A DNA stretch of 7,092 nucleotides from an uncultured Clostridia bacterium (GTDB lineage: Bacteria > Bacillota_A > Clostridia > Christensenellales > Aristaeellaceae), in contig CAMBWJ010000089.1 of the NCBI GenBank assembly GCA_945871545.1, positions 1 to 7,092 of the forward strand, in the 5' to 3' direction. The notes below the pieces were generated by a model. The model was given only the letters and a program-made list of their open reading frames with translations, was not told the origin of the DNA and searched no databases. Within the stretch, counting starts at the first letter, position 1, and each line of letters begins with the position of its first letter. A program made the position numbers and the translations under genes. Positions 3,983-7,092 of this stretch are shown here, one piece after another.

Positions 3983-4436
3983 GCGCACCTTCCAGTTCCA
4001 GCAGGTATTTCTTTACATCCAGTCCCCCCGCATAGCCCGTGAGCCGACCGTCCGCGCCCAGCACACGGTGGCAGGGCACGAGGATAGGCAGGGGATTTAC
4101 ATGGTTCGCCATGCCCACCGCCCGGCAGGCCCTGGGCCGTCCGATCTGCGCCGCAAGCGAAGCGTAAGAACGTGTCTCCCCGTAGGGAATCGTGCGCAGG
4201 GCTTCCCAGACCTCCATTTGAAAGGGCGTTCCATGCATGGAAAGCGGAACGGAGAACGCCGTTCTCCGCCCCGCAAAGTATTCCTCCAGCTCGCGCTCGG
4301 CCTGCAAGAGCACCGGCGCAGCGTCCATCTCCTCCCCCGCGGCGGCAAAGCGCAGCGCGCACAGACCGTCCCCGTCTGCGCACAGCTTTAGCCTTCCGAT
4401 GGGCGATTCGATGTGACGAACAAGCTCAATCTGCAT
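3969..4436 (-). CDS. ogt: Methylated-DNA--[protein]-cysteine S-methyltransferase (O6-alkylguanine repair)
   Basis: A 155-residue Ogt/AGT-type suicide repair protein that moves the alkyl group from O6-alkylguanine (and O4-alkylthymine) in DNA to its own cysteine. The active site PCHR is at 121-124 (acceptor C122), within the conserved context ANHVNPLPILVPCHRV. Also present are PFQMEVWEAL (71-80), IPYGETRSYASLA (83-95), the Arg-finger region RAVGMANH (105-112) and the C-terminal GYAGGLDVKKYLLELE. The N-terminal domain is short, as in Ogt rather than Ada; no Ada regulatory domain is fused. The gene starts inside the last codons of coaX (11-nt overlap) and has no convincing Shine-Dalgarno sequence, so translation is likely coupled to coaX. 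The start at 4436 fits the family's usual N-terminus (IESPIGRLKL). The symbol follows domain architecture; some annotators would use adaB or mgt. Confidence 0.96.
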   Translation of the reverse strand: MQIELVRHIESPIGRLKLCADGDGLCALRFAAAGEEMDAAPVLLQAERELEEYFAGRRTAFSVPLSMHGTPFQMEVWEALRTIPYGETRSYASLAAQIGRPRACRAVGMANHVNPLPILVPCHRVLGADGRLTGYAGGLDVKKYLLELEGAHVKV

Positions 4437-5196
4437 TTTTCTGATGAATCAGGCACAGACCCTTCAGCGTCAGCAGGCCGTCCATGACGTCGATCACATT
4501 GGACTCCCCGGCCACCAGCACCGCAAGGCCGCCCGTGGCGATCACCTTGGCGTTGGGCGCGCCCAGCTCCTTCTTCATGCGGTCGACCAGGTAGTTGATC
4601 TGGCCGATGTAGCCGTAGACGATGCCCGCCTGCATGTTGGTCACGGTGTTGCGCCCGATGACGCTCTCCGGCTTGACCAGCTCGAAGCGGGGCAGCTTTG
4701 CGGCGCGCTCGGTCAGCGCCTCCGCCGCCAGCTTCAAACCCGGGCAGATCGCACCGCCCAAGAACTCGCCCTTTTCGGAGATCACGCCGAAGGACGTGGC
4801 CGTGCCGAAGTCGATGGTGATGCAGGGCCCGCCGTAGAGCTCGTAGGCGGCCACGGCGTTGGCGATGCGGTCGGAGCCCAGCTCGCGCGGGTTCTCATAC
4901 TTGATGTTGATGCCCGTCTTGATGCCGGGGCCGATGATGCGCGGCTCCTGCTTGAAGTAGGTTCGGCACATGTGCTCGATGGTGAAGTTGATCTGCGGCA
5001 CCACGGAAGAAATCATGATGCCGTCCACCTGCTCGGGCGAGATGTGCTTGTGCGCAAACAGGTTCATCAGCAGGATGCCGTATTCATCGGAGGACATGTT
5101 GCGGTCGGTGGACACGCGCCAGTACTGCACCATCTCCATGCCCTCGAAGAGCGCCGTCTTGATGTTGGTATTTCCGATGTCCAGGGTGAGTATCAT
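4426..5196 (-). CDS. coaX: Type III pantothenate kinase
   Basis: A complete 256-residue CoaX, which phosphorylates pantothenate with ATP (and a monovalent cation) to 4'-phosphopantothenate, the committed step of coenzyme A synthesis. Type III kinases belong to the acetate/sugar kinase fold and are not inhibited by CoA. Visible motifs are the phosphate-binding DIGNTNIK (6-13), the pantothenate-binding ELGSDR (105-110, with the likely catalytic base D109), DFGTATSF (129-136), GGAICPG (147-153) and the late TGG (221-223). The start at 5196 follows AAGGAG, which is formed by the last codons of the transporter gene upstream, 6 nt away. Being next to an ECF S component suggests that the vitamin is taken up and trapped by phosphorylation. 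Downstream it overlaps ogt by 11 nt. Confidence 0.97.
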   Translation of the reverse strand: MILTLDIGNTNIKTALFEGMEMVQYWRVSTDRNMSSDEYGILLMNLFAHKHISPEQVDGIMISSVVPQINFTIEHMCRTYFKQEPRIIGPGIKTGINIKYENPRELGSDRIANAVAAYELYGGPCITIDFGTATSFGVISEKGEFLGGAICPGLKLAAEALTERAAKLPRFELVKPESVIGRNTVTNMQAGIVYGYIGQINYLVDRMKKELGAPNAKVIATGGLAVLVAGESNVIDVMDGLLTLKGLCLIHQKNAD

Positions 5197-5202
5197 GGGG
5201 AG

Positions 5203-5802
5203 TTACTCCTTTGAGAACGATTCGTGTTTCATCTTGCGAAGCGCCAGCACCACGGGCGTGGTGATCAGGGCGTTGGCCACGGCCTCCAGCGAGCCTGCGA
5301 TCAGGCCGGTGCCGCCGATGAGCGTCAGCACCTTTTCGGAATTGATGCCCATGATCACATAGAACAGCAGCATGAGGCCGAGGTAGAAGATCGTATTGGT
5401 CAGGGAGCCCGCGACGGCGGAGGCAGTGATGGCCAGCTTGTCCTTGCCGCGGCTGCTGACCGCCTTATGCACGCACCAGGCGATCACCGGCACCAGAAGG
5501 CGCGGCACATAGCACATCAGCGCCGCCAGAACGGGATTCGCCGCCACCAGCGCGCCCGCCAGTGCGGATGGGGTTCCATAGATGCCGAAGGCGCCCAGGG
5601 CGCTGATGGTACCGAAGCATGCGCCCAGCAAAAGGCCCGTCTTCAGGCCAAGAATCAAGGTTCCGATGACCACCGGCACGGCGAGGATGGAGATGTTGAT
5701 GAAGCCCAGCGGGATCATTCCCACGGGCGTCAAGCCCAGAAGGAAGATCAGTGCGACGAAGAGTGCGGTGATTACGATGCGGAACATCCTGTTGTGGTTC
5801 AT
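5203..5802 (-). CDS. ECF transporter S component, probably pantothenate-specific
   Basis: A 199-residue integral membrane protein with about six hydrophobic segments (roughly 7-27, 31-55, 58-74, 82-112, 122-151 and 160-188) and short charged ends. This is the size and topology of the substrate-binding (S) subunit of energy-coupling factor vitamin transporters. The first helix has an A-x-x-x-A motif (A13, A17), which S components use to dock on the shared EcfT subunit. No EcfA, EcfA' or EcfT is encoded here, so it would rely on a module encoded elsewhere (group II ECF). The substrate cannot be read from the protein. Pantothenate is inferred from coaX lying only 6 nt downstream and would make this PanT-like. 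The start at 5802 has GGAGG 8 nt upstream. It is the first gene of the operon. Confidence 0.85.
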   Translation of the reverse strand: MNHNRMFRIVITALFVALIFLLGLTPVGMIPLGFINISILAVPVVIGTLILGLKTGLLLGACFGTISALGAFGIYGTPSALAGALVAANPVLAALMCYVPRLLVPVIAWCVHKAVSSRGKDKLAITASAVAGSLTNTIFYLGLMLLFYVIMGINSEKVLTLIGGTGLIAGSLEAVANALITTPVVLALRKMKHESFSKE

Positions 5803-6021: not shown

Positions 6022-6051
6022 TTGACAATCCCCTTCCTGTCGTGATAGAAT
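6022..6051 (+). promoter_or_regulatory. Promoter of the aroF leader and aroF
   Basis: A perfect -35 box TTGACA (6022-6027) is followed after 18 bp by the -10 box TAGAAT (6046-6051, five of six consensus bases), preceded by an extended TGA. The start is expected near 6058, giving a leader RNA of about 190 nt up to the intrinsic terminator. Confidence 0.85.
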
Positions 6052-6085
6052 GCAGAAAACATCGATTGCAGGAAGGTATTTACCC

Positions 6086-6154
6086 ATGCGCTTCTTCTCC
6101 CTCAGCTTTGCATTTACCGGCTACTATTACTTTACCAGCTTTGGTACGAAGTAA
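6086..6154 (+). CDS. Phe/Tyr-rich leader peptide of the aroF attenuator
   Basis: A 22-codon reading frame (ATG 6086, TAA 6152-6154) with GGAAGG (6071-6076) 9 nt upstream. It encodes a peptide with Phe at positions 3, 4, 8, 10, 16 and 19 and a Tyr-Tyr-Tyr run at 13-15: nine aromatic residues of 22, and no Trp. It starts MRFFSLSFAF and ends FTSFGTK. Such composition directly downstream of a strong promoter and upstream of a terminator is the hallmark of a regulatory leader peptide, as in enterobacterial pheL. The peptide itself is probably not functional; the ribosome's position on it would be the signal. Low charged tRNA-Phe or tRNA-Tyr would stall the ribosome on these codons. The gene controlled, a DAHP synthase, makes the first intermediate of Phe and Tyr synthesis, which fits. 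Confidence 0.9.
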   Translation: MRFFSLSFAFTGYYYFTSFGTK

Positions 6155-6230
6155 TGGTAACTTTGTGATGCGCAAAGCCCGGGGCTTTCGATGAAGAAAA
6201 CCCAAAGAACATTCCGCCGCACAGTTACCA
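6155..6230 (+). promoter_or_regulatory. Antiterminator of the aroF attenuator
   Basis: Segment 6155-6172, starting one base after the leader stop codon, can pair with 6215-6230: eight uninterrupted pairs (UGGUAACU with AGUUACCA), one mismatch, four pairs including one G-U, a two-base bulge, then GCG with CGC. The 3' partner includes the whole 5' arm of the terminator (6216-6225), so the two structures exclude each other. The loop between holds a small GC-rich hairpin, AAAGCC/GGCUUU (6174-6179 with 6183-6188). A ribosome paused at the leader stop would cover 6155 onward and block this helix. Confidence 0.75.
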
Positions 6231-6247
6231 GACTGTGCGGCATTTTT
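6216..6247 (+). terminator. Intrinsic terminator (attenuator) ahead of aroF
   Basis: A perfect 10-bp stem, GCCGCACAGT (6216-6225) with ACTGTGCGGC (6232-6241), a 6-base loop TACCAG and a run of five T at 6243-6247. It lies 33 bp before the aroF start codon and after the leader peptide, so it can only act as a conditional terminator for aroF. Confidence 0.92.
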
Positions 6248-6280
6248 ATTCCCGGCGCCGATGGAAGAGAGGTAACAGAA

Positions 6281-7092
6281 ATGATTGCAGTACTGAAGCA
6301 TGACGCATCCCCCGAAAGAACCGAAATGCTGATCGAATGGCTGAAGAAGCAGGGCCTGGGCGTGCACGTCTCCCAGGGCGAGTACACCACCGTCCTGGGC
6401 CTGATCGGCAACACCAAGAACGTGGACATGGACATGCTGCGCAGCCTGGACATCGTGGAGAGCGTCACCCGCGTCACCGACCCCTTCAAGGCCGTGAACC
6501 GCAAGTTCCATCCCGACGACAGCATCATCCCGATCGGCGATGCGGGCCTGACCCTCGGCGGCGGTTCCTTCGGCCTGATCGCGGGCCCCTGCTCGGTGGA
6601 GTGCTGCGACCAGATTGTGGGCGTGGCCCAGCGGGTGAAGCTGGCGGGTGCAAACATGCTGCGCGGCGGCTCCTTCAAGCCCCGCACCTCCCCCTACGAC
6701 TTCCAGGGTCTCGGCGGCGAGGGCATTCGCCTGCTGCTGGAGGCCAAGAAGGCCACCGGACTTCCCATCGTCACCGAAATCATGGACATCCGCACGCTGG
6801 ATCTGTTCGAGGACGTGGACGTGATTCAGGTGGGCGCGCGCAACACCCAGAACTTCGATCTGCTCAAGGAGCTGGGCAAGACCAACAAGCCCATCCTGCT
6901 CAAGCGCGGCCTGGCTGGCACCATTAAGGAGCTGCTGATGAGCGCCGAGTACATCATCGCCAGCGGCAACGAGAACGTTATCCTCTGCGAGCGCGGCATC
7001 CGCACCTACGAGAGCACCTACACCCGCAACACGCTGGATCTCTCCGCCGTGCCGGTGCTCAAGGAGCTGACCCACCTGCCCGTGGTGGTGGA
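6281..7092 (+). CDS. aroF: 3-deoxy-7-phosphoheptulonate (DAHP) synthase, type I-beta, with regulatory FL domain (3' end missing)
   Basis: The first 270 codons of a DAHP synthase, which condenses phosphoenolpyruvate and erythrose 4-phosphate to start the shikimate pathway to aromatic amino acids. Residues 1-70 form the ferredoxin-like (FL) domain typical of Thermotoga-type enzymes ([41 protein letters not shown]), where it mediates inhibition by Tyr and Phe. The TIM-barrel follows: AGPCSVE (101-107, metal-binding C104), [13 protein letters not shown] (127-139), FQGLG (141-145), [10 protein letters not shown] (183-192), PILLKRG (204-210), [11 protein letters not shown] (234-244) and [11 protein letters not shown] (248-258). 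The conserved DPSH and later metal ligands lie past the window end; about 70 residues should be missing. The start at 6281 has GAGAGG (6267-6272) 8 nt upstream and matches the family N-terminus. Expression is predicted to be controlled by the attenuator upstream. Confidence 0.96.

Follow-up and report, generated by a model that had tools for sequence, protein, structure and literature searches.

The window, by which we mean the whole stretch of 7,092 nucleotides analysed here, ends inside an aroF gene (6281..7092, plus strand, continuing beyond the window), which encodes a DAHP synthase with an N-terminal ferredoxin-like domain. On the same strand in front of it, a motif search placed a sigma-70-type promoter at 6022..6051 (TTGACA-18-TAGAAT with TG, 11 of 12 consensus positions), from which transcription would start at about 6058; the window holds two promoter-like sites, against a mean of 1.0 in shuffles. 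Direct reading gave a Shine-Dalgarno sequence (AGGAAGG, 6070..6076) and a leader peptide ORF of 22 codons, MRFFSLSFAFTGYYYFTSFGTK and a stop codon, which begins with the ATG at 6086 and spans 6086..6154, its peptide having six Phe (codons 3, 4, 8, 10, 16 and 19) and three Tyr (codons 13-15). Part of the ORF (6104..6134) forms region 1, assigned as the pairing partner of region 2 from folds and the swapped-partner tests described below; region 2 itself lies around and past the leader stop codon (6147..6174, from the same tests and the consensus of related leaders), with TGGTAACTTTGTGATGCG at 6155-6172 as its antiterminator portion. Region 3 (6216..6230), complementary to region 2, comprises the 5′ arm and loop of an intrinsic terminator (3:4) at 6216..6249, GCCGCACAGTTACCAGACTGTGCGGC plus ATTTTTAT, with an 11-bp stem, a 4-nt loop and a T tract. 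Terminator-like patterns are not rare by themselves (five in the window, shuffle mean 4.2), and with its 11 pairs the stem described here is the longest of the five. The Shine-Dalgarno sequence of aroF follows at 6267..6272, again by direct reading. As RNA, 6058-6255 folds with a z-score of -5.97, equalled by none of 200 shuffles. The promoter, ribosome-binding site, 22-codon Phe/Tyr ORF, competing fold and terminator that the original prediction had placed before a DAHP synthase gene are thus all present on direct reading and computation.

Divergent from aroF lies a gene for a small membrane protein (5203-5802, minus strand) without an NCBIfam match, adjoined by a type III pantothenate kinase gene (4426-5196, minus strand); the membrane protein could perhaps be guessed to be a pantothenate transporter subunit. 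A structured 5′ leader for this divergent gene was considered and found to be unsupported (fold z 0.09). Within the flanks examined, the remaining genes of the window show no synteny with the 80 aroF loci compared below.

The aroF product scores above cut-off for the NCBIfam models PRK08673 and TIGR01361, its Pfam ferredoxin-like and DAHP synthase domains begin at residue 1, and the alignment with chain 1rzm pairs the first residues of the two proteins. By TIGR01361 the enzyme belongs to the B. subtilis type of DAHP synthase. Its closest solved chains are 4grs, 1rzm and 1vr6, of which 1rzm comes from Thermotoga maritima and is subject to inhibition by Tyr and Phe, the same two amino acids that the leader would sense.

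Relatives of aroF were sought in one genome per species; 585 of 590 matched stretches encode a relative, and the best 80 of at least 585 were used, mostly titled as metagenome-assembled genomes of Bacillota/Clostridia. With a leader taken to be a Shine-Dalgarno-preceded short ORF containing at least six aromatic residues within 14 codons, 59 of the 79 aroF loci for which 250 nt or more of upstream DNA was available carry one, compared with 1.1% of 1580 dinucleotide shuffles and two of 325 other gene starts in those loci, both of which (L030, L055) head pheA-aroF operons. The original prediction had staked itself on orthologous loci keeping an ORF with aromatic codons, and in this respect it held. 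Widening the upstream span to 450 nt gave 60 loci with a leader, which together with the window make up the detailed set of 61. A model, R1, built from 23 aroF leaders and the window (24 in all), recovered further leaders in L018, L029, L033, L041 and L051 that the ORF scan had overlooked. Neither the ORF scans nor R1 detected a leader in 13 of the 80 loci, one of which (L056) has merely 57 nt upstream. Among the 1411 residues of the 61 detailed leaders are 256 Phe, 252 Tyr and 5 Trp, and both Phe and Tyr are present in every leader.

Some of these leaders come from records with unexpected titles. Three titled Treponema or Treponemataceae (L007, 2338-2403; L008, 2350-2421; L051, 2320-2391) have the same attenuator before aroF, with Tyr-rich leaders in L007 (Tyr:Phe 7:1) and L008 (8:1) and a mixed one in L051 (6:5), and these may reflect either transfer or mis-binned contigs. 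The leader MKAFAFSFVYYYYFTPPRA upstream of aroF in L018 (2302-2361), from a record titled Thermoguttaceae, was likewise either mis-binned or transferred.

Past the aromatic codons the leaders share a conserved stretch, consensus AAAAAGTAATAGTGATTTGTGCTGCA, which constitutes region 2 and is followed by a spacer and then the terminator. This stretch is complementary upstream to the sensor and preceding codons (region 1) and downstream to the 5′ arm and loop of the terminator (region 3). We compared the duplex energy of partners from the same locus with that of partners exchanged between loci, a swapped-partner test that requires no alignment. In the 61 leaders, own-locus partners were favoured for the antiterminator 2:3 (z -10.0) and the hairpin 1:2 (z -8.4), as against z -0.6 for the control pairing 1:3 and +1.2 for spacer:3, and region 2 paired with the terminator loop only gave z -6.8. 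The 51 non-redundant leaders gave -9.3 (2:3), -7.6 (1:2) and -6.1 (region 2 with the loop). As some ORFs read through region 2, its definition was moved from the stop codon to the aromatic cluster; 2:3 and 1:2 reached p 5e-5, the lowest attainable, with both definitions, while the 1:3 control had given p 0.018 under the earlier one. Double changes occur in 13 of 18 alifold pairs across 25 sequences, and compensation can be seen in AGCGATT/AATCGCT in L006, GGTTAAT/ATTAACC in L010 and GAGTAA/TTACTC in L019. Taken locus by locus, the 2:3 energy is better than that of shuffles (p≤0.05) in 41 of the 61 leaders only and not in 20, the window having z -2.0. The leader ORF ends just ahead of region 2 in some loci and traverses it in frame in others, so what is kept is the RNA element and not the end of the peptide.

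The terminator is similarly retained: a hairpin below -14 kcal/mol was found in 60 of 61 leaders compared with 3 of 122 shuffles, and one below -9 kcal/mol in 61 of 61 compared with 15 of 122, L001 being represented in these counts by a wrong, later hairpin, while its likely terminator was identified separately. Simple folds of the nascent RNA with the ribosome at set positions came out in the order that attenuation predicts: for the 61 leaders, the terminator 5′ arm was sequestered to 0.73 with a stalled ribosome, 0.41 with a ribosome at the stop codon and 0.47 with none; for the window alone the values are 0.86, 0.39 and 0.43. The stalled state exceeds the stop state by 0.2 in 43 of 61 leaders, the reverse occurring in none, and it exceeds the ribosome-free state in 36, with the reverse in one; a difference above 0.2 is absent between stall and stop in 18 leaders and between stall and naked RNA in 25. 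Altogether, the leader shows what is expected of a leader-peptide attenuator, namely a Shine-Dalgarno-preceded ORF of pathway codons, a terminator between leader and gene, and mutually exclusive, covarying pairings. The conserved Phe/Tyr leaders and the covariation of 1:2, 2:3 and 3:4 support the ribosome-mediated attenuation originally proposed for this locus.

Such an attenuator would work as follows. RNA polymerase would transcribe the leader, and a ribosome would begin to translate the leader ORF immediately. With charged tRNA-Phe or tRNA-Tyr in short supply, the ribosome would stall in FAFTGYYYF and mask region 1, leaving 2:3 to pair, the terminator blocked and aroF transcribed. If both charged tRNAs were ample, the ribosome would reach the stop codon abutting region 2 and mask region 2, and the 3:4 terminator would form. 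Without a ribosome, 1:2 would pair and the terminator would again be favoured. Both the stalling and the response to starvation are what we infer from this arrangement.

The RNA element is present before other genes as well. A search with R1 of the genome of L010 (G007, titled Lachnospiraceae) returned three sites: the aroF leader itself, at E 1.4e-13, and two copies, one with the Leu ORF MKHISLANLFLLLLLPQEIE (E 2.9e-7) and one with the Ile ORF MMKQSSFAIIIGIIISFIIRKCDKVGL (E 0.0036). A second model, R2, is restricted to the core and adds the window and these two copies to 21 aroF leaders. Run over 24 genomes of the G007 genus, it found 31 sites at E≤1e-4; they are spread over 11 genomes, and nine of the 11 have three to four each. 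Ten are Phe/Tyr leaders preceding aroF; nine are Leu leaders preceding a xylose-isomerase-like TIM barrel fused to an AMP-binding ligase; two, with Leu and Phe, precede pheA followed by the TIM-barrel ligase; nine are Ile leaders preceding the gene of an HTH-cupin-AMP-binding protein; and one Leu leader lies at a contig end with no gene visible. Gene type and leader residue are therefore concordant in all 30 strong matches with a visible gene. In 25 leaders of this genus the swapped-partner test gave z -3.8 for 2:3 and -5.2 for 1:2, with +2.6 for the 1:3 control.

Pooling the R2 searches gave 81 unique sites at E≤1e-4, of which 52 precede aroF, nine a Leu-leader ligase, two pheA with the ligase, nine an Ile-leader ligase, three pheA, two PaaK-like genes and one aroB; the remainder are the contig-end Leu leader and two sites without assignment. 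Phe is at least threefold over Tyr before both PaaK-like genes (6:2, 8:2). Of the pheA leaders, L113 reaches this excess (5:1), and L114 (7:5) and L184 (6:4) do not. Three weaker R2 matches, L134-L136 (E 9e-4 to 5e-3), are leaders with six Phe and one to two Tyr in front of a chorismate mutase-prephenate dehydratase gene, identified by a domain scan of the gene of L134. One scaffold copy in G172 (L161 / L167) precedes aroB, then an aroA-like gene and further genes, and its leader, MENKISAAKKYWRRFGFTMTVVRLICDA, includes Tyr, Trp and Phe in small number.

A third model, R3, rests on 19 aroF leaders and excludes the window, L001, L010, L052 and every copy seen in the G007 genus; L002 is among the 19, and its leader occurs again in the sample taken from the genus of the L001 genome. 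The 46 loci to which it was applied had been picked because earlier searches pointed there and its E-values are rough; R3 matched 44 of them at E≤0.05, including the left-out window at 3e-7. Ten Leu leaders matched at 3.7e-9 to 2.5e-7, L127 at 7.9e-10 and L130 at 8.5e-9, the PaaK-like loci at 2.8e-9 and 9.1e-8, L113, L114 and L184 at 1.1e-9 to 1.2e-8, L134-L136 at 2.7e-4 to 1.2e-3 and, more weakly, nine Ile leaders at 3.7e-5 to 9.1e-3. Scores of the Leu leaders equal or surpass those of the aroF leaders of the same genus (best 2.9e-7). The pheA-aroF loci L030 and L055 are matched by neither R1 nor R3, their layout being alike and their scaffold diverged.

In terms of prevalence, the scaffold was found in 13 of 16 genomes sampled from the genus to which the closest relative of the window belongs, the genome of that relative having one copy, and in 11 of 41 and 10 of 39 genomes in two overlapping samples of one family. 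Broad samples gave few detections: in another family 12 of 120 genomes had matches at E≤0.01, five of these being real and seven resembling chance. A scan of the class, in which ten candidates were scored per genome, gave matches at E≤1e-4 in 16 of 391 genomes, one of them without a leader. Several weak R2 matches were rejected for absence of a leader, namely L107-L110 and L112 (E 0.015-0.076), L210-L212 (E 0.004-0.007) and L137 (E 0.0049), and seven of the weak matches L116-L123 lack both a fitting leader and a recognised gene; the other, L116, is a real aroF leader, MKSVIFAAAYYFYFYFTFSKVRSISVCC. For L191 and L162, both at R2 E≤1e-4, we found no Shine-Dalgarno-preceded leader. L162 (G172 contig 158, 6771-6868, minus strand) matches the scaffold at R3 E 1.3e-5 with no recognised gene behind it, and may be a decayed copy, a chance match or a new target.

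The same RNA is read in different frames in front of different genes. In all eight aroF leaders shown, the stretch CUUUACUU, which pairs with AAGUAAGG, gives UAC-UUU-ACU (Tyr-Phe-Thr), and in L124-L126 and L128, which are Leu leaders, it gives GCU-UUA-CUU (Ala-Leu-Leu). The outer GCAUCAU, pairing with GUGAUGC, is read as GCA-UCA-UAU in seven of eight aroF leaders and as GGC-AUC-AUU in the five Ile leaders shown. Taken together, the parts, their conservation, the alternative pairings with their covariation, the common scaffold and the agreement between residue and gene, all obtained by computation, make it highly probable that the element is a ribosome-mediated attenuator belonging to a homologous family in Clostridia whose members have region 2 and the terminator in common and whose copies before other genes have, in some lineages, been re-coded for Leu, Ile or Phe.

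Such frame reading also bears on a different explanation, in which the Phe and Tyr codons would be a by-product of pairing, region 1 being U-rich in order to complement the A-rich AAGUAAUAG, and some other signal would regulate. The inner helix CUAUUACUU:AAGUAAUAG does overlap the Tyr codons, and U-rich stretches encode Leu or Ile in alternative frames; in L194, L196 and L198, which belong to the same genus as the closest relative of the window, a second ATG-led frame across the aromatic region is Leu-rich. This frame was rejected as their leader ORF, its Shine-Dalgarno spacing being poor and that of the aromatic ORF better. We nevertheless regard this explanation as improbable: three of the Phe codons of the window (F3, F4 and F19) are not covered by the pairing, frame and residue track gene type in every one of the 30 strong matches of the G007 genus, and, in small numbers, the two leaders of pheA and ligase operons have three to four Phe beside seven to eight Leu while the nine ligase-only leaders have zero to two Phe. 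TnaC is an arrest peptide that stalls the ribosome, and a leader of that kind, whose sequence with bound Phe or Tyr would stall the ribosome, might explain why a similar residue order, for instance FAAxFFxGYYYFF, recurs in several leaders; this seems very unlikely given that residue order, length and ends vary, that some ORFs cross region 2 and others end before it, and that scaffold copies have Leu or Ile in place of the aromatics. Finally, control of aroF by a T-box or another RNA binding tRNA or ligand directly can be dismissed in practice, for although T-boxes were found in all 12 host genomes tested, the ORF with pathway codons is conserved, the window has no match at E≤1 anywhere to any of 4227 Rfam families, T-box RF00230 and amino acid leaders included, and 18 related loci tested (12 of them leaderless aroF loci) have none at gathering scores.

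Having weighed these, we return to the attenuator family and to the ligases behind its Leu, Ile and Phe leaders. The fusion of a xylose-isomerase-like TIM barrel to an AMP-binding ligase behind the Leu leader (L164, 397-2922; L165, 1180-3705, minus strand) is an unusual domain pair. Behind the Ile leader, L166 (456-2798) encodes a fusion of HTH, cupin and AMP-binding ligase, the HTH slightly below the Pfam cut-off, and by its domain matches this protein is predicted to join a regulator-like part with an enzyme. The closest chain to the Ile-leader ligase is 3etc (E 1.7e-197), presumably the Methanosarcina acetivorans medium-chain synthetase that uses 2-methylbutyryl-CoA. Among NCBIfam models it scores best with MbcS, at 445 bits where the cut-off is 850. 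A medium-chain synthetase using 2-methylbutyryl-CoA is described in the accessible part of one report (PMC10455477). PaaK models match the gene of L192 under their cut-off (560 of 646 bits), and the PaaK-like gene of L157 is interrupted by a contig end. In the rumen, according to the available text of another report, isovalerate can serve as a source of Leu, 2-methylbutyrate of Ile and phenylacetate of Phe (PMC7356843). Both leader residue and gene type are in keeping with synthesis of Leu, Ile and Phe from these three acids; for the TIM-barrel ligase, the substrate would be a guess read from the sensor codons alone.

It is reasonable, on balance, to favour a broader reading, in which an ancestral Clostridia scaffold would have spread by copying from operon to operon and gained new specificities through altered codons and a shifted reading frame while keeping its fold, and in which the codons would reveal the substrates of orphan ligases. 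The residues sensed would be Phe/Tyr (aroF), Phe (pheA and PaaK-like genes), Leu, Leu with Phe, and Ile, and the ligases would act on isovalerate, 2-methylbutyrate and phenylacetate, leading by reductive carboxylation to Leu, Ile and Phe. Both the substrates and this direction of evolution are inferred from the present-day leaders and genes. One scaffold re-used with different codons would illustrate how the amino acid specificity of leader switches can shift, and the codons yield a sequence-based guess at acyl-CoA ligase substrates that is testable gene by gene.

Attenuators of this kind are well known from the enterobacterial pheA, trp, his, leu and ilv operons, which have a leader ORF with codons for the product, 1:2, 2:3 and 3:4 alternatives and a terminator before the gene, and Rfam includes Phe, Trp, His, Leu and Thr leader families. 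The leader in the window resembles them in its product-codon ORF, its alternative pairings and the terminator ahead of the gene. It differs in mixing Phe and Tyr at the first step of the pathway, and its scaffold is common to operons of different amino acids. Closer to our locus, the uORFC-13-1 motif, as given in the accessible portion of its report, is found before aroF in Acholeplasma and environmental sequences, with 24 examples having at least one Phe residue, and its candidate uORF includes a U-run that encodes Phe (PMC8632094). Compared by description and not by sequence, the window agrees with it in position, having a uORF with Phe before aroF and beside an intrinsic terminator, whereas the range given there for the motif is limited to Acholeplasma and environmental DNA. 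Classical leader-peptide attenuation in Firmicutes is described, in the parts of the reports available, for a his leader before hisS*/hisZ in bacilli (PMC2965389) and for the ilv-leu leader of S. aureus (PMC5794164). These concern other genes and other amino acids than the aroF leader; the his leader is common to two genes yet senses His in both, and in those parts of the two reports one scaffold with varying sensor residues is not described. In the open-licence literature searched, outside which most subscription papers lie, we found no aroF attenuator reported in Firmicutes and their kin besides uORFC-13-1, and no re-coded attenuator family. Ribosome-mediated attenuation is thus of a known kind, and what appears to be new is a homologous, codon-reprogrammed family in Clostridia.

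It is with T-boxes that this family bears the most instructive comparison. T-boxes bind tRNA directly, and a single scaffold is re-programmed by codon for many amino acids; to our knowledge, a change of amino acid specificity through a re-used scaffold is otherwise known for T-boxes only. The presence of T-boxes in all host genomes tested means that the leader is no stand-in for missing T-box machinery, and a classical ribosome-read attenuator would thus stand where the aromatic pathway begins, in Clostridia equipped with T-boxes too. Like T-boxes, the Clostridia scaffold would take its specificity from a set of codons; unlike them, its reader would be the ribosome, and, if this is true, the family would be the ribosome-read counterpart of the T-box.
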